Source of the DNA: a virus
Length of the DNA stretch: 40,086 bases
IMG/VR virus record: IMGVR_UViG_3300033571_016612
Coordinates: 1 to 40,086 of that record
Direction: 5' to 3' (one strand)
Under the pieces are notes generated by a model. The model did not search any database. It was not told where the DNA came from and saw only the letters and a program-made list of their open reading frames with translations. Position numbers and translations under genes: made by a program. Below, piece after piece: positions 12,368 through 36,253 of the stretch (position 1 is its first letter; every line of letters begins with the position of its first letter).

Positions 12368-13447
12368 TCAACCAATTTCAGGTGCAATGAGTGCTACTTC
12401 TGTAGTTGATACTGTCGCCAAATCCAATGCAAAATTGTGTGCGTTACGTTCGTGGATGACTTCTAGACCCAAATTTGCTCTTCCGAGAACATCTGCCCAA
12501 GTAGGAATAACTCGTCCTTGTGCATCTTGAACACTATGTTGGAAGTTAAACCCGTTGAGGTTATAACTCATAGTGGCAATGCCAAGAGAAGTAAACCAAA
12601 TGCCAATTACAGGAAGTGCAGCAAGGAAGAAATGTAGTGAACGTGAGTTATTGAAGGACGCATATTGGAAAATAAGACGACCGAAATAACCATGTGCAGC
12701 AACAATGTTATAAGTTTCTTCCTCTTGTCCGAACTTGTAACCATAGTTCTGAGATTCAGTCTCAGTGGTTTCACGAACAATTGAAGAGGTTACGAGGGAA
12801 CCATGCATTGCTCCAGCAAAAGCACCACCGAAAACACCGATAACTCCCATTTGATGGAAGGGGTGCATAAGGATATTATGTTCTGCTTGGAAGACAAGCA
12901 TAAAATTAAAGGTTCCAGAAATACCCAGAGGCATACCATCAGAGAAAGAACCTTGACCAATAGGATAAAGAAGAAATACCGCAGTTGCTGCAATGGCAGG
13001 AGCAGAATATGCAACAAAAATCCAAGGGCGCATTCCAAGACGGTAAGAAAGTTCCCACTCTCTCATAGCATACATCCAAATACCAATTAGAAAATGGAAG
13101 ATGATGAGTTGATATTCACCTCCGTTGTAACACCATTCTTCAAGAGATTGTGCTTCCCAGATAGGATAAAAATGAAGTCCGATAGCATTAGAACTTGGAA
13201 TAACATTACCCGAGATAATGTTATTCCCCCACATAAGAGACCCAGCAACAGGTTCTCTAATGCCATCTATGTCAACGGGAGGTGCTGCAATAAAAGCAAG
13301 AATAAAGCAAATAGTAGCAGCAAGAAGGCAAGGAATCATAATGGTTCCCGACCACCCAACGTACAACCTATTATTGGTTGAAGTAACCCACTGGCAAAAA
13401 TCTTCCCAAGCGTTACTTTGTGAACGTGTAGCAATTGTAGCAGTCAT
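12368..13447 (-). CDS. psbA: photosystem II reaction-centre protein D1
   Basis: Full-length D1 of 359 aa. It carries the redox-active Tyr in [20 protein letters not shown], the QB-pocket and haem/chlorophyll histidines ([20 protein letters not shown]), the conserved [20 protein letters not shown] loop, and the C-terminal manganese-binding [13 protein letters not shown] with a processing site after Ala, followed by a short cleaved tail ([15 protein letters not shown]). Gln is present at the YPIGQG position. D1 is the fast-turning-over subunit damaged by light; phage copies keep host photosynthesis running during infection (established for cyanophages). No intron or frameshift is seen. It is a single-gene unit with a sigma70-like promoter, a structured leader of about 150 nt, and its own terminator. 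Confidence 0.98.
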
Positions 13448-13469: not shown

Positions 13470-13572
13470 GAATCTAGGGAAGATTCTTTACGTTATTTTC
13501 CTTCTCCACCCTCAAGAGAAGGCAAGATAAGAGACGTGTTTAGACTCCCCATAGGTCTCGGTTAACGGGAGT
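13470..13572 (-). promoter_or_regulatory. structured 5' leader of psbA (three stem-loops)
   Basis: Between the predicted transcription start (about 13600) and the psbA ATG (13447) the minus strand can form three hairpins: ACTCCC/GGGAGT (13544-13572, 17-nt loop), CCTTCTC/GAGAAGG (13500-13522, 9-nt loop) and GAATCT/AGATTC (13470-13486, 5-nt loop). Such a leader could stabilise the mRNA or control translation, as host psbA leaders do. Folding was judged by eye. Confidence 0.5.
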
Positions 13573-13607
13573 ATCAGAATCAGGTTTTCCTTTTTTCCGA
13601 TGTACTT

Positions 13608-13673: not shown

Positions 13674-13743
13674 GCGGATAACGGGATTCGAACCCGTGAC
13701 TGGAACTTGGAAGGATCATATGTTACCACTACACTATATCCGC
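13674..13743 (-). tRNA. tRNA-Gly (anticodon TCC) with weak anticodon stem
   Basis: Minus strand: acceptor GCGGATA/TATCCGC (7 bp), D stem GTGT/ACAT, T arm ACGGG-TTCGAAT-CCCGT, and anticodon loop CTTCCAA giving TCC. Length and spacing are canonical (70 nt before the discriminator). The anticodon stem TGATC/GTTCC has only three pairs, with a T27-C43 and a T30-T40 mismatch, unusual for a working tRNA. Identity as Gly is supported by the GCGGATA acceptor, common to Gly tRNAs. Confidence 0.75.
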
Positions 13744-13767
13744 AAAGATAATAAATATTTAGTCAAA

Positions 13768-13839
13768 TATTCGGATCGGGAATCGAACCCGAACTCCATA
13801 TGCATTGTCTGCTCGTCCTGACCACTAGACTACCCGAAT
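13768..13839 (-). tRNA. tRNA-like RNA with no pairable anticodon arm
   Basis: Minus strand: acceptor ATTCGGG/TCCGAAT (7 bp), D arm GTCT-AGTGGTCA-GGAC with the conserved GG, and T arm TCGGG-TTCGATT-CCCGA are all excellent. The total is the exact 71 nt expected before the discriminator. However, the 17 nt that should be the anticodon arm (AGCAG-ACAATGC-ATATG) cannot form a stem, and no loop with U33 is found in any register. The body (GTCTAGTGG..AGGAC) resembles Glu/Asp tRNAs. It may be a decayed tRNA or a tRNA-mimicking RNA. Listed as tRNA because three of four arms are intact; decoding function is doubtful. Confidence 0.55.
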
Positions 13840-13939
13840 ATGGGGTAGGAGGGAGAGTCTAAAGCGCAAGTAATTCTCCTCTTTCACTTCATTCAGTTTC
13901 TCAAAGAACCCAAAGAGAGGTGTTCGCTTCCTACAAATA

Positions 13940-15475
13940 TCAAGATTGAGTAATTTTATTCAACAAATCTGCCCCAAGATCACTTTGAGCAAATGCTTCA
14001 AATGCAGATGCAAGAGAAGTTCCACCTTTAGAACTAAAGAGATCCATCACATTTTTCACACCATCAGAGGTAGATCCACCATTGGCAATAACCTTAACTT
14101 CCGCAGATTGAAGTGCCTTAGCTTGTTCAACACCTACAGACATATAAGATTTAAGTGCTTCAACGAGAACAAGATACTTCTGATAAGATTCATTATTACC
14201 AATCTCTTGTGAAAGAGCAATTTGAGCACTAACTGGTGCAAGTTGCATAGCTTTATCAGCTTCTGCCTTAGCAATACCAGTAGTCTGAATAGCTTCAGCG
14301 TTTCTTTTCTCGGATTCCAACTTACCATCAGCAATAAGAATAGAAGTTTCTTTTTGCTGAGATGCCTCAATCAATGCAGTTTCTTTACTAATTTTAGCAA
14401 CTTTTTGCAATTCTTCAGCCTGAACAAGTGCTCTGTCTCGTGTAATTTCAGCGGATTTGATTTCTTGAACTCTCTGAACTGCAAGATCCTTTTCTTTGGT
14501 CTCAGCTTGTTGCAGAAGAACTTGTTGCTTTGATTGTTCTTGTGCTATACCAATTACTTTATCTTTCTCAGCAGATCTTTCTCCAACTTGTTGTTCAGCA
14601 AGTTGTTTACTGAGTGCGATTTCACGATTTGCTTCCACTGAAGAAATTTCAGATGTACGCTTATTTTCAACTTCAGCAACAGTTGCTAGACGATTATTCT
14701 CAGCAACAGTAATACGACTATCTTTCTCAATCTCTGAGATCTTTTTAGCCATAATATTAGAAATTACCGAAGATTTAGGAGAATCACGAATGTCCATAAG
14801 TTCCATATTTCTCACAGAACTTACTCCCCATTCAGCTAATTGATCTCTAACTTCATTCGAAAAACTCTCACCAAAAGTAGATCTTTGAGTCATGATGTTA
14901 TCAATTTTCTCAGAGGCGAGAACCCTTCTCACAGCACCCTGAACGATGAGTGTCAATTGCTGTTCAAGACTTGAGATGTTAGAAATTCTTTGAGATGCAA
15001 CAGTGGGATCAATGATTCTAAAAAATGCCGTAACATCTACCAAAAAAGGAACTCTATCTTCATCATAAGCTTCATAATCTTGAAGAGACAGATCAAAATT
15101 ATTTACCGGAAGTTTGATAACAGAAACACCAAACTTTGGAACCCAGGAAGGAATTTCATAATAAACATTTCCATTAGGCAAATTTGATCCATAAGGAACT
15201 GTAGTTTTACCATTCTGAACAATATGGACCATGTTGGTATTGACAACTTTTCTGAAAAAGAAAGATATCAAAATCAACAAAGTTCCTGATACACCTCCAA
15301 ACAACAATGCATATTTAAGAATAAAGAATACTGGAGATTCTGATGCTTTAGATACCTGTGATTGCGTGTTTAGAGGAACTACATCTGCTTTCACACTTTC
15401 TACTGGAAGAAAAGAAGAAGAAGAAGCAATAACTGCAGGAATGATTAGACTTGCAATTTTGTGATTGAATTTCAT
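13940..15475 (-). CDS. flotillin-like SPFH/Band 7 membrane protein (511 aa)
   Basis: A signal-like N-terminus (SLIIPAVIASSSSFLPV) is followed by a transmembrane helix at about residues 50-72 (ILKYALLFGGVSGTLLILIS). Then comes the SPFH/Band 7 domain (VHIVQNGKTTVPYGSNL, VPFLVDVTAFFRIIDP, LTLIVQGAVRRVLASEKI). A long Ala/Glu/Gln/Lys-rich coiled coil fills about 240-430 (ALVQAEELQKVAKISKE), and the C-terminus is flexible. This is the flotillin layout; flotillins oligomerise at membranes and organise microdomains. In a phage it could protect or remodel the thylakoid or plasma membrane, or act in lysis control; the role here is inference. It is flanked by tRNA-like RNA genes on both sides and is probably acquired from a cyanobacterial host. 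Confidence 0.85.
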   Translation of the reverse strand: MKFNHKIASLIIPAVIASSSSFLPVESVKADVVPLNTQSQVSKASESPVFFILKYALLFGGVSGTLLILISFFFRKVVNTNMVHIVQNGKTTVPYGSNLPNGNVYYEIPSWVPKFGVSVIKLPVNNFDLSLQDYEAYDEDRVPFLVDVTAFFRIIDPTVASQRISNISSLEQQLTLIVQGAVRRVLASEKIDNIMTQRSTFGESFSNEVRDQLAEWGVSSVRNMELMDIRDSPKSSVISNIMAKKISEIEKDSRITVAENNRLATVAEVENKRTSEISSVEANREIALSKQLAEQQVGERSAEKDKVIGIAQEQSKQQVLLQQAETKEKDLAVQRVQEIKSAEITRDRALVQAEELQKVAKISKETALIEASQQKETSILIADGKLESEKRNAEAIQTTGIAKAEADKAMQLAPVSAQIALSQEIGNNESYQKYLVLVEALKSYMSVGVEQAKALQSAEVKVIANGGSTSDGVKNVMDLFSSKGGTSLASAFEAFAQSDLGADLLNKITQS

Positions 15476-15563
15476 AAAAAAATAAGTTATATCAAAAATA
15501 GTGAAAATACTTTTTAACTTTATTCAGATTGTTTAAGAATCCAAAGAGAAGTTTACTCTTTCT

Positions 15564-15616
15564 AAAAAAAAAAATTGGTATCTTAGATAATAAGTGCCTA
15601 TTACCTAAAATACCAA
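15564..15616 (-). terminator. strong Rho-independent terminator upstream of the SPFH gene
   Basis: On the minus strand, TTGGTAT (15616-15610) pairs with ATACCAA (15581-15575), with an inner stem continuing through TTAG/CTAA and GTAATA/TATTAT. An uninterrupted run of 11 T follows (15574-15564). It ends transcription coming from the tRNA-like RNA at 15776-15895 before the SPFH gene. A TATAAT box (15632-15637) sits just upstream of it, so a very short terminator-only RNA is also possible. Confidence 0.8.
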
Positions 15617-15631
15617 CGGTTACTTGTAAAC

Positions 15632-15637
15632 ATTATA
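15632..15637 (-). promoter_or_regulatory. TATAAT -10-like box directly before a terminator hairpin
   Basis: Minus-strand TATAAT about 16 bp upstream of the strong hairpin at 15575-15616. The -35 region is AT-rich and not convincing. The promoter plus stem-loop order resembles the mobile promoter/stem-loop cassettes described in T4-type phages. Confidence 0.35.
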
Positions 15638-15775
15638 TAAAAAACAAAAATTATGATAAAATAAAAAATATGTACCTCCAATAATCAAAAGACACTTTTT
15701 GAGTGTAAACAAGATGAGAATTTAAAACAAATATGAGAATATATGTTGTGTATTAAATTGCTGTCTCATCTTTAT

Positions 15776-15895
15776 TCGGGGGAGTAGGACTCGAACCTAC
15801 AATAAACTGTTTCTTAGTGGTTTATTAATTGCTGTTATTATCTATAATCTAGATAAATTTTTAACTGTTGCCTTTTCCAATTAGGCCACCCCCCG
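15776..15895 (-). ncRNA. tRNA-like RNA with 68-nt region in place of the anticodon arm
   Basis: Minus strand: acceptor CGGGGGG/TCCCCCG (7 bp, one G-T), short D arm GCC-TAATTGGAAAA-GGC with the conserved TTGG, and T arm GTAGG-TTCGAGT-CCTAC. Between the D and T arms lie 68 nt instead of the usual 21-31. They contain two hairpins: TTATCTA/TAGATAA with a 5-nt loop, and AATAAAC/GTTTATT with a 12-nt loop. The insert is bracketed by two AACAGTT copies. No standard anticodon stem with U33 is found, even assuming a long variable arm. The total is 120 nt. It is either a tRNA with an insertion or a tRNA mimic; the nearby Ro60-like gene makes a Y-RNA-like role worth testing. Confidence 0.6.
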
Positions 15896-15917
15896 GATGA
15901 AGGAAGTTTTAAAAACT

Positions 15918-15981
15918 AGATAGTAGTTGTTCTTTTGAAAGTTTCCAAAACGGATAAAAGAGTTTGATTGCTGAACTATCT
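15918..15981 (-). ncRNA. structured repeat A (paired ends AGATAGT/ACTATCT)
   Basis: A 64-nt element whose ends form a perfect 7-bp stem, 8 bp with the flanking T/A. The minus strand begins AGATAGTTCAGCAATCAAA and ends ACTATCT, followed by AGTTTTTAA. A second copy (repeat B, 16017-16067) shares the internal TTCAGCAATCAAA and CTAG-ended stem but has AGATGGT/ACCATCT. The stem thus changes on both strands together while pairing is preserved. That compensatory change points to a selected RNA (or DNA) structure. Middle lengths differ (64 vs 51 nt). Confidence 0.5.
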
Positions 15982-16016
15982 ATGGGTGCAAATTAGAGGA
16001 AATATACGTATTAACT

Positions 16017-16067
16017 AGATGGTGTTTGATCTTTATCCAAAAAAGAGATTTGATTGCTGAACCATCT
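16017..16067 (-). ncRNA. structured repeat B (paired ends AGATGGT/ACCATCT)
   Basis: A 51-nt partner of repeat A, 41 bp after the stop of the Ro60-like gene. The minus strand starts AGATGGTTCAGCAATCAAAT and ends ACCATCT. The conserved part is the 5' strand and TTCAGCAATCAAA; the 3' middle diverges. Direction is assumed to follow the neighbouring genes. Confidence 0.5.
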
Positions 16068-16108
16068 AAAGAGATTATAAGATGAAAATCTGAGTTTGTC
16101 AACCCCTA

Positions 16109-17584
16109 TTAAGGGGTGTTAAAGACTCGACCGATCTCATCATACCTGTTATTATACACCGCATCGTTCATAATGTCAACAGGTGACAGAGTACCACCAG
16201 TAAGTACGGTTTTAAGAATAGAAGGACTACAACCGGACACAAGACAAGTACCAGTATCGTGAGAGGTAATAGGAACGTTTGAATGAGAATTCACATTCCA
16301 GAATACCAATTGAGGCATCTCATAACCCGCCTTACGATAGAGTTTTTGAATTTGCTCAAAATTAGTTCTCTTATTAGAAAAGCAGCATCGATCAAATTGC
16401 ATATCAGAAACAATAATCAATTTCTGAGGCATGTCTTCGGATGCAACAGAGTTTTTCTCAGCTGCGCTTAGAATAGTTTTAAATACTGCAATCAAATCAG
16501 TATTCATATCCCAATCAGCACGGGAAAGATTCTCAATACGTTTTCCAATCGTAGAACCAACAATAGTTTGCAATTTAGGTTGTGCAGAAAAAGTTAGAAA
16601 CTTATTTTTCCAAGCAGGAGAGGTATTGCGTTCTGCAATATACATCGCAAGAGAGATGGAAACTGCCATAGGCATACCATACATAGACCCTGAAACATCT
16701 GCAACTACTAGACCGTTGAAAGTTTGATCTCCCATATAATTAGGCAGAGCATTCCATTGAAGATCAATAGTCTTATCGTTACGAGCACCGTTGTGGAGAT
16801 ACTGATAAACAATATCATAAGGATAAAGAGTTGCAGCGTTGATTTTTGCTTCACCCTTTTCAACAGAACTCAGATACTGAGCATAACGAGTTGCATCCTG
16901 CTTTGCAAATGCCTTACGGTACATAAATGAAGCACGAGAAGGTACTTTTGAATAGTCAATTGCAGACCATTCTCTAGAACACATTGCAGTTTCAATAATC
17001 TTAATATGATTACGGAGTTTCGACAGAGTTTGACGATACTGACGTTCTGTCATACCAAGATAAGATGCAATCTTACGCCCTAAACGCTTACTGTCTTTAC
17101 TAGAAGCATTGATTGAAGGCAACCATTTGCTAATTAAACTTACTTGATTAGATGATTGATCAGCAAGAACTGCAACATCTTGAAGTAATTGAGTTTTGAT
17201 AAGATCAAGAACTGCTTCCCATGCAGAAGTATCCTCCAGAATAAGAAGATCATCCCAACGACCATATTCAGGCACTAGAGAAACAAGTTTTACGGCAATT
17301 TGTGAATCCTGTTCTACAAGATATTTAAATAGTTGACGAAAAACTTCACGTTCACCTTGCCCACCCCGAATATCGCGCACCCAGAACAAAATACGAGTAG
17401 CAGTTTCAGGATTTACTTGATAAGCGCGAGCAAAGAGTTTCTTTGCTTGATTCATATCATTACGACATGATCCGATCTTACCAAAAAGATCTAGGCAATA
17501 ATTCAAAGTCGAAGAATATGCTTTTGCTCCATTCAAAGTCTCGGTGGTATTCAGTTCATTTTCTAATGCAGTAATAAAAGTCAT
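16109..17584 (-). CDS. Ro60-like / DUF2828 protein: helical RNA-binding-like repeats plus vWA domain (491 aa)
   Basis: The N-terminal two thirds are all-helical, with DUF2828-type signatures: LFWVRDIRGGQGERE (about residue 70-85), EYGRWDDLL, ISKWLPSINASSKDSKRLGR and KVPSRASFMYRKAFAKQD, then KINAATLYPYDIVYQYL. The C-terminal third is a von Willebrand A domain with the MIDAS motif VVADVSGSMYG (DxSGS, about 295-305), a later WDMNTDL and IIVSDMQFD. This order (helical repeat ring plus vWA) is that of Ro60/Rsr and the related DUF2828 family; Ro60 proteins hold misfolded or Y RNAs in their ring. The ATG at 17584 is chosen because GGAG lies 6 bp upstream; an upstream GTG at 17623 has no such site. 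It is followed on the same strand by structured repeats and tRNA-like RNAs. RNA binding is inferred. Confidence 0.75.
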   Translation of the reverse strand: MTFITALENELNTTETLNGAKAYSSTLNYCLDLFGKIGSCRNDMNQAKKLFARAYQVNPETATRILFWVRDIRGGQGEREVFRQLFKYLVEQDSQIAVKLVSLVPEYGRWDDLLILEDTSAWEAVLDLIKTQLLQDVAVLADQSSNQVSLISKWLPSINASSKDSKRLGRKIASYLGMTERQYRQTLSKLRNHIKIIETAMCSREWSAIDYSKVPSRASFMYRKAFAKQDATRYAQYLSSVEKGEAKINAATLYPYDIVYQYLHNGARNDKTIDLQWNALPNYMGDQTFNGLVVADVSGSMYGMPMAVSISLAMYIAERNTSPAWKNKFLTFSAQPKLQTIVGSTIGKRIENLSRADWDMNTDLIAVFKTILSAAEKNSVASEDMPQKLIIVSDMQFDRCCFSNKRTNFEQIQKLYRKAGYEMPQLVFWNVNSHSNVPITSHDTGTCLVSGCSPSILKTVLTGGTLSPVDIMNDAVYNNRYDEIGRVFNTP

Positions 17585-17696: not shown

Positions 17697-18053
17697 TTAG
17701 TTTGATGAGCACTGTGACAGTTTACTTACTGATCGATTATTTGTCATCAGAACCAGTCTTCTTGCAAGTTCAGTTGAGTTGGGATTATAAGCAACTTCGC
17801 TACGAATATAAAAATCGGTATCAGTCGCTAGAGATTCTAGAGTCTTTGATGATGTGTTGGGATTTTCAGCAACTTCATAACGAACACACCAGTCCTCATC
17901 AGTTGCTAAAAATTCTAGAATTTTTGATGATGTGCTGGGATTAGAAGCAACTCCATCACGAACACGCCAATCATGATCAGTCGCTAAGATTTCTAGAGTT
18001 TTTAATGGTGTGTTGGGATTTTCAGCAAGTTCGATTTTTTGATAAAAATACAT
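17697..18053 (-). CDS. leucine-rich-repeat-variant (LRV) protein 1, 118 aa
   Basis: Built from about four 24-residue repeats with consensus A-x-NPNTS-xx-LE-LATD-xDW-xVR-x-EVA (for example ENPNTSSKTLESLATD, then DTDFYIRSEVA). This is the LRV/HEAT-like solenoid pattern, which usually mediates protein binding. The C-terminus (ELARRLVLMTNNR) is shared with the neighbouring paralogue at 18106-18426. There is no signal peptide or catalytic motif. It lies between the paralogue and the Ro60-like gene, all on one strand. Repeats are near-identical at DNA level, which points to recent duplication. Function unknown. Confidence 0.75.
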   Translation of the reverse strand: MYFYQKIELAENPNTPLKTLEILATDHDWRVRDGVASNPSTSSKILEFLATDEDWCVRYEVAENPNTSSKTLESLATDTDFYIRSEVAYNPNSTELARRLVLMTNNRSVSKLSQCSSN

Positions 18054-18105: not shown

Positions 18106-18426
18106 TCAGGTGGACGGTTTATTATTTGTCATCAGAACCAGTCGTCGTGCAAGTTCTGATGACTTTGGATTTTCGCCAACTAACATACGAATCTCCCAAT
18201 CTTCATCAGTCGCTAGAGATTCTAGAGTCTTTGATGATGTGTTGGGATTAGAAGCAACTCCCACACGAACACTCCAATCCTTATCAGTCGCTAGAGATTC
18301 TAGAGTCTCTGATGATGTGTTGGGATTACGAGCAACTTCATAACGAACACACCAGTCCTCATCAGTCACTAGAGATTCTAGAGTCTTTGGTGATGTGTTG
18401 GGATTACAAGCAATAATAGAATTCAT
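18106..18426 (-). CDS. LRV repeat protein 2, 106 aa (paralogue of the 17697 gene)
   Basis: Three to four copies of the NPNTSxxTLESLATDxDWxVRxxVA repeat, ending ELARRLVLMTNNK like its neighbour. The start MNSIIACNPNTSPKTLESLV enters directly into the first repeat. The pair is likely a tandem duplication followed by repeat gain or loss. It may act as a small protein-binding solenoid. No family-specific function can be read from the sequence. Confidence 0.75.
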   Translation of the reverse strand: MNSIIACNPNTSPKTLESLVTDEDWCVRYEVARNPNTSSETLESLATDKDWSVRVGVASNPNTSSKTLESLATDEDWEIRMLVGENPKSSELARRLVLMTNNKPST

Positions 18427-26069: not shown

Positions 26070-26909
26070 TTATTCCTCAGAATATTTTCTCAAATATTTT
26101 TGACTAGTATAGTAATTAATAAGTTGTTTTTTATCCAATCTCTGTAAAAAGTCCCACAATTCAAGATTTTCTTTCATATATGGATTCTTTTGATATGAAA
26201 CTGGCCAAGAATTATCGCCTCTACTATGTTCCAAATGATAAACATGATCATCTATTCTACCAACATTGTATCCTAATTTATTAAATCTAAAAAATCTTTC
26301 TTTATCTTCCGGTGAAGATCCTCGAAAATTTTCATTTTCCATCCCACCTTCAATATAAACTCTTCTATTAAAAAATTGGACATGTCCATACTGAGAGATT
26401 TCAGTATTTTGTTGTTGTTCTAAAATTGAAAAATTAAAATTATTATTTAAAAATTCACTTACGAGTTCATCATTAGCATAAATTTGTTTTTGATAATAAC
26501 CAAATCCATAAGGATATATTACATCGTAAGTTTTATCTATAATTAGATTATAGCACTTTATATAAGTATCCGGTTTTAGTAGAACATCACAATCATAATT
26601 AACAATAACTTCAGTTTTCGATCGTTCCAACATTTCATTTATGATTTGCATTCTATAAAAAACAGGATCATTTGATTTCTCAAAAATATAATCTAATTGA
26701 TTAATATCATCTTCTACAAATTCTTTAATCTGAGGTAGAGCATAACTCTGAAAATATTTTTCATTATCAACTTCTTTTAAAATTATATTGGTATTAAAAT
26801 TTTTTAAAAGATAACAAAGAACAGTAATTATATTTCTAATTCTATCGTCAGAATCAATTCTGATGGGAATTAAAAAAGTTAATTTCGACAAATCAATTTT
26901 ATTACTCAT
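26070..26909 (-). CDS. GT2-type glycosyltransferase, chondroitin-polymerase-like (279 aa)
   Basis: Fold signatures: LTFLIPIRIDSDDRIRNIIT at the N-terminus, VIVNYDCDVLLKPDTYIK (DCDV, metal-binding DxD-like, about residue 108), GMENENFRGSSPEDKERFFR (EDxE-like acid region) and VYHLEHSRGDNSW (HxxHSRG end motif), as in the N-terminal domain of chondroitin/hyaluronan-type polymerases. The start is taken at 26909, because that ATG overlaps the upstream TGA as ATGA; an upstream start 12 bp earlier is possible. It transfers a sugar from a nucleotide donor in the cytoplasm. Part of the 19-28 kb sugar operon. Confidence 0.8.
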   Translation of the reverse strand: MSNKIDLSKLTFLIPIRIDSDDRIRNIITVLCYLLKNFNTNIILKEVDNEKYFQSYALPQIKEFVEDDINQLDYIFEKSNDPVFYRMQIINEMLERSKTEVIVNYDCDVLLKPDTYIKCYNLIIDKTYDVIYPYGFGYYQKQIYANDELVSEFLNNNFNFSILEQQQNTEISQYGHVQFFNRRVYIEGGMENENFRGSSPEDKERFFRFNKLGYNVGRIDDHVYHLEHSRGDNSWPVSYQKNPYMKENLELWDFLQRLDKKQLINYYTSQKYLRKYSEE

Positions 26910-35482: not shown

Positions 35483-35719
35483 CTGAGTATGAACTGCTTC
35501 ATTTTTCAATGAAGATTGGACCATATCTTACGATACATAGTATCGCCTTTGCGCTTCCACTCGCTTGAGTGTACTCTACTAAGTGTTATTTGTAAATAAC
35601 CTTTTCGATGGTCTCTGAACCTTACTACTAAAATAGTAGTCTTGGATGCTGATTTCCATATTACCTAAGCAACTTAGGGGTTCCAGCAGTTCACAAAGTT
35701 AGGTGCCCGAAGTTAATTA

Positions 35720-36253
35720 AGCACCGAAATCGTGCAGTTTGAACTCAATCAAACTTGGGTCTCCAGTCTTCACCAAGTAATCGTGAATAATCCTCTTGCT
35801 CTCATAAGAGTTGGTAGCAACAGTAGTTCCATACCAAATACTCCTGAGAAGTGAAGTCTCAATGTAACTTGTAATCCAGGCACATTGAGGGTCAGTGTTC
35901 TCAACAGTCGCAAGAACATTCTTTACAGGAATTACAGAACCTTCGGGAACTGCTTTAATACGAATAGGCAACTTACCACCGTGTTCACGAAGAATATACT
36001 CCCAACCTTCACGATTGAAAGGTTCTCCGTGTGCTTGAGTAATAAGTTCTGCGGTATCAATATCATCCTGAGTAATAGGATTAGACAGATACTCTTTCAG
36101 AAAGATTTGAAGTCCGAAGAAAACAGTTTGGTTCCAAGTACCTCCACGACTTTCTACATAGGAATATACATTCGTAGTCCCTTCGGGATATTGATTGTAT
36201 TGCGAAAACTTGTAAGAATCGGTGTTCAACAGAATTGTTTTATTAATAGTCAT
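35720..36253 (-). CDS. nadV: nicotinamide phosphoribosyltransferase, exon 1 (N-terminal 178 aa)
   Basis: Starts MTINKTILLNTDSYKFSQYN (the DSYK substrate motif of NAMPT/NadV) after an AAGGAG ribosome site, and continues YPEGTTNVYSYVESRG, VFFGLQIFLKEYL and ITSYIETSLLRSIWYGTTVA. The exon ends ...EFKLHDFGA at 35720 and is followed in frame by TAA inside the intron. Unspliced mRNA would therefore make a 178-aa truncated protein lacking the active-site His and Asp. Upstream lies a 5' stem-loop leader shared with the nadM gene. Confidence 0.92.

Follow-up and report, generated by a model that had tools for sequence, protein, structure and literature searches.

The DNA analyzed here is a 40,086-nt viral stretch from a cyanophage (IMG/VR record IMGVR_UViG_3300033571_016612, positions 1 to 40,086; hereafter the window). 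It contains psbA and tRNA genes and, on the minus strand, a gene for a DUF2828-type protein with a predicted Ro60 fold (the Ro gene). On this strand, a ~630-nt non-coding gap separates the Ro gene from a band_7/SPFH gene, after which come a second tRNA-like RNA and tRNA-Gly (Table 1). The gap holds a cluster of four RNAs, bounded by a sigma-70 promoter that matches the consensus at 12 of 12 positions and by an intrinsic terminator-like site. The original prediction, made from the sequence alone, had named three of these RNAs, namely two structured repeats whose terminal stems covary and a 120-nt tRNA-like RNA without an anticodon arm. All three proved real, and the terminal stems of the two repeats (Y-form RNAs 1 and 2) do covary, but the count was short by one, as Y-form RNA 3 had been overlooked.

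Table 1. Features of the Ro locus in the window (positions in the 40,086-nt stretch).
Feature	Position	Strand	Basis or remark
DUF2828-type protein, predicted Ro60 fold, 504 aa	16109-17623	-	Open reading frame, Pfam, phrog_850, AlphaFold2, Foldseek
Sigma-70 promoter	16074-16102	-	TTGACA-17-TATAAT, 12/12 consensus; end of the -10 element 5 nt upstream of Y-form RNA 1
Y-form RNA 1	16016-16068	-	Stem UAGAUGGU/ACCAUCUA, CAGCAA at 16059
Y-form RNA 2	15917-15982	-	Stem UAGAUAGU/ACUAUCUA, CAGCAA at 15973
tRNA-form RNA, 120 nt	15776-15895	-	tRNA acceptor, D and T arms; module instead of anticodon arm
Circularly permuted module within tRNA-form	15829-15856	-	UUAUCUA-gauua-UAGAUAA-uaa-CAGCAA; hairpin at 15856-15838
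Y-form RNA 3	15711-15772	-	Stem AAGAUGAG/CUCAUCUU, CAGCAA at 15763
Intrinsic terminator-like site	15574-15617	-	20-pair stem + T10; closes the RNA cluster ahead of the band_7 gene
band_7/SPFH protein gene	13940-15475	-	3' of the Ro gene and RNA cluster
Second tRNA-like RNA	13767-13840	-	tRNA arms (acceptor, D, T) + mini-arm of 3 bp whose GACAA loop is invariant

The protein matched the Pfam families PF11443 (DUF2828, E 6.5e-42) and PF25043 (DUF7788, E 1.9e-51) and was assigned to phrog_850, "RNA-binding protein" (E 9.5e-148). Its AlphaFold2 model, built from 47 relatives (predicted local distance difference test score 89, predicted template modelling score 0.89), shows a HEAT-like helical ring and a vWA domain, the architecture of Ro60/Rsr. 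The metal ion-dependent adhesion site D309-x-S-G-S is intact, as had been predicted, with D309, S311 and S313 invariant across 20 aligned relatives. Comparison of the predicted structure with Ro60/TROVE, proposed as a check at the outset, gave a clear answer: in a Foldseek search of the PDB, only the Ro60/TROVE structures 2i91, 1yvp, 1yvr, 9kop and 9l5y scored E<0.001, the top match being Ro60 2i91 (E 1.1e-7, TM 0.57). At the sequence level, a profile search of the PDB gave weak TROVE/Ro60 matches (E 0.058-0.8), and phmmer with the single protein sequence found none in the PDB. Since the modelled fold is that of Ro60 and the Pfam TROVE family is not matched, we class the protein as a Ro60 in fold that forms a branch of its own in sequence.

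The Ro gene family is carried by 681 of 50,697 phage records (~1.3%), and mycobacteriophage annotators already label it "Ro-like". Bacterial genome assemblies carry it widely too, and the loci fetched from them came mostly from Clostridia, Erysipelotrichia, Synergistota and Treponema; some of these copies may be prophage. One DUF2828 Ro relative (L261) sits in a contig binned as Lokiarchaeota. Shared neighbours gave no clue to function, no protein family occurring beside the gene in more than 14 of 97 viral loci. In LAh_9, A511, Erwinia 47 and SE_PL, genes for RNA ligases or a tRNA splicing ligase are found no more than 4 kb from the Ro gene, an anecdotal hint of RNA repair.

The four RNAs downstream of the Ro gene share one module. 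The sense strand of the gap has four copies of the hexamer CAGCAA, each next to a helix, in the order 7-8 bp stem, 1-3 nt, CAGCAA. In Y-form RNAs 1-3, the helix pairs the 5' and 3' ends of the molecule, whereas in the tRNA-form RNA both strands appear in reverse order as a hairpin followed by CAGCAA. The three terminal-stem RNAs and the tRNA-form thus carry the same module in two circular permutations. The paired-end terminal stem that characterizes YrlA, a bacterial Y RNA, is present in Y-form RNAs 1-3 and absent from the tRNA-form. A tRNA-like domain inside the stem, the other YrlA hallmark, is absent from the Y-forms of the window, which at 53-66 nt have no room for one; it is found, permuted, in relatives such as Faith1 (L014), L053 and L222.

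The tRNA-form RNA has the 7-bp acceptor, D and T arms of a canonical tRNA and matched the tRNA model RF00005 with 39.7 bits (gathering threshold 29); ARAGORN makes no call. The anticodon stem and its 7-nt loop are missing, and the hairpin with CAGCAA stands there instead. Because the permuted module sits at the anticodon arm, the molecule ends at its acceptor stem like a true tRNA. A scan of all loci returned 84 non-redundant candidates of this form (107-129 nt, median 118), a few of which are visibly spurious or begin within another tRNA, so that the total is best given as about 80. CAGCAA or CTGCAA is retained in 82 of the 84. A short helix at the position of the anticodon stem was found in 22 of 82 tRNA-forms, against 7.4 +/- 2.4 in shuffled sequences; in this subset, the module therefore sits in the anticodon loop. 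An A follows the acceptor stem in 46/82, and CCA is encoded in 5/82. The acceptor and T stems covary (42 representatives). RNAalifold on a full-length MAFFT alignment of the 82 tRNA-forms recovered the acceptor, D and T arms only, because the variable middle does not align. The tRNA mimicry is real. Just two bacterial genome contigs (L251 and L290) contain the form, which is therefore mainly viral in our sample.

We also searched IMG/VR without reference to the protein, using the pattern CTTGNNNAAGN{6,8}CAGCAAN{18,40}GGTTCRA. There were 50 unique matches with a T stem and acceptor (full matches). Three of three pairs beside the anchor, which the pattern had not required, were present in 46 of these 50, compared with 4 of 17 other matches. 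A Ro gene was found in the examined DNA of 34 of 57 loci with full matches, always within 2.2 kb. As for the other contigs with a tRNA-form, three were known Ro carriers (L003, L005, L049), and 12 of the 17 searched whole have a Ro gene, where ~1.3% of phage records in general do; the remaining five are linear records of 14.5-129 kb and may be fragments.

The module recurs throughout the protein family. In the flanks of 97 viral Ro loci, all 4096 hexamers were tested for a perfect 7-nt strand at most 3 nt before them and its complement 18-200 nt downstream. CAGCAA ranked first by number of loci and, for hexamers with 30 or more occurrences, also by fraction. It had a perfect 7-bp partner in 148 of 284 sense occurrences (65 loci) against 4 of 98 antisense ones, with a background of 5.3%; in 80 bacterial loci, the corresponding figures were 160/259 and 2/76. 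Within 3.5 kb of the viral genes, the Y-form was present at 71 loci, the tRNA-form at 28, and either form at 73; the Y-form was present at 73 of the 80 bacterial loci. The association between RNAs and gene that the original prediction had proposed extends to relatives, and linkage of the RNAs to the Ro gene is family-wide. The consensus, read by eye, is 5'-AAGRYRC-NNA-CAGCAA...GYRYCUUG-3'; the stems vary between copies while complementarity is kept. Depending on the phage, the elements lie upstream or downstream of the Ro gene, on the sense strand and with CAGCAA constant. Several viral relatives (among them L057, L058, L066, L071, L076 and L077) have no CAGCAA element in the flanks examined and may use another RNA. 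Aeromonas phage Aeh1 has a Ro gene, no sense CAGCAA nearby, and a 122-nt annotated "tRNA-Val" (L026 8142-8263), possibly another tRNA with an insert.

A 7-bp stem with CAGCAA is in itself no specific marker, since 12 of 17 such matches in phage B23 fall on the strand opposite the Ro gene. Specificity comes only from location, strand, gap and 3' flank: across two complete phage genomes, single 7-bp matches are scattered everywhere, yet the sense copies with a long stem and a near-zero gap cluster at the Ro locus. Promoter-like sites precede 15 of 173 viral elements, compared with 3 of 865 random positions. We rejected a promoter as a general rule, as it was found in only 14 of 67 loci and bacterial loci showed no enrichment. 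A T-arm was detected in 19 of 79 long viral Y-forms versus 1 of 1940 random coding 70-mers. The long Y-form of Faith1 has a T arm, a capped 7-bp acceptor and a D arm between the stem strands, which is the YrlA topology. The Y-forms of L234 (upstream 416) and L052 (upstream 1578) each seem to hold a whole tRNA inside, anticodon arm included.

YrlA RNAs lie beside genes for TROVE-type Rsr (D. radiodurans, Salmonella; RF02553), as the RNAs described here lie beside a gene for a protein of predicted Ro60 fold. As reviewed in PMC8394870, the YrlA stem docks Rsr and its tRNA-like part docks PNPase. The long Y-forms of Faith1, L222 and L053 share the YrlA plan of a terminal stem and a permuted tRNA-like domain (T arm, capped acceptor, D arm), whereas the tRNA-form of the window is unpermuted and ends at the acceptor. 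In a genome with a TROVE gene, four YrlA copies beside that gene had the stem signature GGGCGAAUGC...GUCGCCC and no CAGCAA. The search with RNA models that the original prediction called for succeeded for tRNA and failed for YrlA: RF02553 gave no covariance-model match in the region at E<=5, so we rejected a YrlA identity for the RNAs of the window, and no match above cut-off was found in four related phage records or in 14 related loci. Since the tRNA-like domains are shared and the stem signatures differ, the Ro branches, in the examples seen, have tRNA mimicry in common and differ in their docking signature. Canonical phage tRNAs have the same three arms as the tRNA-form, which, lacking an anticodon loop, cannot decode.

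The pairing of a phage Ro protein with neighbouring RNAs, initially thought new, is not new as such. For bacteria and for mycobacteriophages, likely Y RNAs beside Ro60 were already put forward (Chen 2014, cited in PMC12282133), and the authors of PMC12282133 suggested Y RNAs near the Ro-like protein of Listeria phage CKA15. The Ro-like RNA-binding proteins of the mycobacteriophages and of CKA15 belong to the same family as the protein of the window. A phage Ro60 fold is also known from Thermus phage phiLo (PDB 9l5y; 14% identity, Foldseek E 2.4e-5), which differs in being described in the PDB as a TROVE domain protein. According to PMC12282133, three of the most strongly transcribed regions of the CKA15 genome are non-coding and lie no more than 2 kb from the Ro gene. 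We found CAGCAA elements directly upstream of the CKA15 gene (25542-25384), behind a TTGACA-17-TATCAT promoter-like site. One of the three transcribed regions, the only one with printed coordinates, is a different, structured RNA of ~490 nt (26236-26727 in OR088597; L218 2637-3128, minus strand), which lies near tRNAs and the Ro gene and has no CAGCAA. In the literature covered, which does not include the key bacterial Y RNA papers Chen 2014 and Sim 2020, we found neither the CAGCAA module and its two permutations nor the unpermuted tRNA-form described. We provisionally regard the CAGCAA signature of the DUF2828 Ro branch and the tRNA-form as novel.

We consider it reasonably probable that the locus encodes a phage Ro60 ribonucleoprotein (RNP), in which the module docks the RNAs to Ro and the tRNA body acts as an adaptor for tRNA-handling enzymes. 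A DUF2828-type Ro ring protein would be encoded beside several small non-coding RNAs, all with a helix and CAGCAA, and the 7-8 bp helix flanked by CAGCAA would be the most likely Ro-docking element. In three RNAs, the module would close the molecule as its terminal stem, in the manner of a Y RNA, and in the fourth, its permuted version would replace the anticodon arm. By analogy with YrlA, the CAGCAA helix probably docks the Ro ring while the tRNA body recruits a tRNA-handling enzyme, most likely an exoribonuclease such as PNPase or a repair, CCA or modification enzyme. In this way, the RNP would steer how structured RNA, probably tRNA, is turned over or repaired during infection. Whereas the YrlA-like form has its ends at the docking stem, the tRNA-form is cut at the acceptor, so that it could be matured by RNase P, RNase Z and the CCA enzyme. 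The protein-RNA link, originally drawn from proximity and shape, now has a better foundation, as the shared module tracks the protein family. The analysis itself establishes the anatomy of the RNAs, their covariation and conservation and their linkage to the gene; from these we infer that the module binds Ro physically, that the tRNA-form is processed as a tRNA would be, which kind of enzyme is the partner and what the RNP does in the cell.

More broadly, we think the odds favour the view that the DUF2828 branch has its own docking RNA, a helix with CAGCAA placed in different circular permutations of a tRNA (YrlA-like forms, the tRNA-form, and Y-forms enclosing a whole tRNA). Such RNAs would form a class of tRNA-derived RNP RNA not yet described, one that is frequent among phages but seldom met in genomes of bacteria, and the RNP platform beneath it would be general and not a phage curiosity. 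Hundreds of phage and bacterial Ro proteins named only DUF2828 or "RNA-binding protein" would gain a specific RNA partner, one covered by no Rfam family searched. RNAs of Ro-bearing phages that tRNA finders miss or call "undetermined" are predicted to be Ro partners. The circular-permutation relation of Y RNAs to tRNAs bears on the origin of Y RNAs and on the role of their tRNA-like domain.

Several points weigh against this interpretation. Neither RNA form occurs within 3.5 kb of the gene in 24 of the 97 viral relatives, and a T-arm is recognizable in only about one in four long viral Y-forms. The six module pairs in the covariation set were preselected, being required when sequences were chosen, and are not counted as evidence; therefore, only the 46/50 result of the protein-blind search tests the module stem without bias. 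The protein does not match Pfam TROVE (PF05731); at E<=0.1, it hits DUF7788 and DUF2828 and, weakly, VWA_2, and no other family. The sole highly transcribed CKA15 region with published coordinates (26236-26727; PMC12282133) misses the CAGCAA elements. The idea of PNPase as a partner is borrowed from D. radiodurans, and in the phage of the window we infer both expression of the RNAs and their binding to Ro.

The RNAs might also bind Ro while their tRNA bodies serve as decoys or sponges for host tRNA-targeting enzymes, such as defence nucleases or tRNA-modifying enzymes, instead of adaptors. The acceptor, D and T arms are intact with no anticodon loop available for cleavage, many loci lie inside phage tRNA arrays (e.g. 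29 tRNAs in L003), and Hughes 2020 (PMC7790460) suggests that YrlA might competitively inhibit an anticodon nuclease. However, anticodon nucleases read the very loop that is absent here, the RNAs are tightly linked to Ro with the same stem in every copy, and the shorter Y-forms without a tRNA body are linked equally strongly; we therefore judge a decoy role unlikely. That protein and RNAs are packaged or active in the virion, as a structural or delivered RNP, has a small chance of being right. The CKA15 relative was detected in purified virions (20 peptides, 57% coverage; PMC12282133), but abundant cytoplasmic RNPs can contaminate such preparations, the CKA15 gene lies outside the structural module, and copies occur in bacterial genome assemblies.

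There is only a slight chance that the hairpins are cis-acting elements of transcript processing or stability and not separate Ro-bound RNAs. Their placement in short gaps beside genes, often in tandem, and within tRNA arrays would suit such elements. Their up- or downstream position by phage, sense orientation and constant CAGCAA would not; moreover, the tRNA-forms are complete tRNA-like molecules and the window copy starts at its own consensus promoter. We give hardly any credence to a decayed or intron-bearing tRNA, even with the B23 counterpart annotated as tRNA-OTHER/Undet, for the ~80 non-redundant copies of 107-129 nt have intact arms and the same insert, which matches no Rfam intron family. 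The phage Ro60 RNP with adaptor RNAs remains our preferred reading.

The second tRNA-like RNA, beyond the band_7 gene, was rightly recognized in the original prediction as an RNA without a pairable anticodon stem, but it does not belong to the Ro system to which it had been assigned. ARAGORN calls it tRNA-His(atg), although the 5-bp anticodon stem cannot form. Homologues occur in cyanophages S-PM2, S-CREM1, S-RIM32 and DSL-LC03, in which a Ro profile search found no Ro gene; we therefore place this RNA outside the Ro system. An IMG/VR pattern that fixed GACAA and left the stem free returned 88 unique copies with a 3-bp stem and GACAA loop instead of the anticodon arm. All 88 are paired, with four main stem types. 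ARAGORN labels these RNAs His, Leu or "???", which are miscalls. The RNA is a widespread cyanophage RNA separate from the Ro system.

A permissive Rfam scan of the region found nothing beyond tRNA, PhotoRC-II and chance matches; the PhotoRC-II RNA (13487-13584, minus strand) lies directly upstream of psbA (12368-13447). A band_7/SPFH gene directly after the Ro gene was also seen in Aeromonas phage LAh_9 (L015 5507-6415) and was absent beside the gene in other annotated loci. Upstream of the Ro gene are two small leucine-rich-repeat-variant (LRV/HEAT-like) repeat proteins (17697-18053 and 18106-18426, minus strand) with similar repeated DNA. The window also contains a group I intron (35497-35781, minus strand; RF00028, 61 bits).

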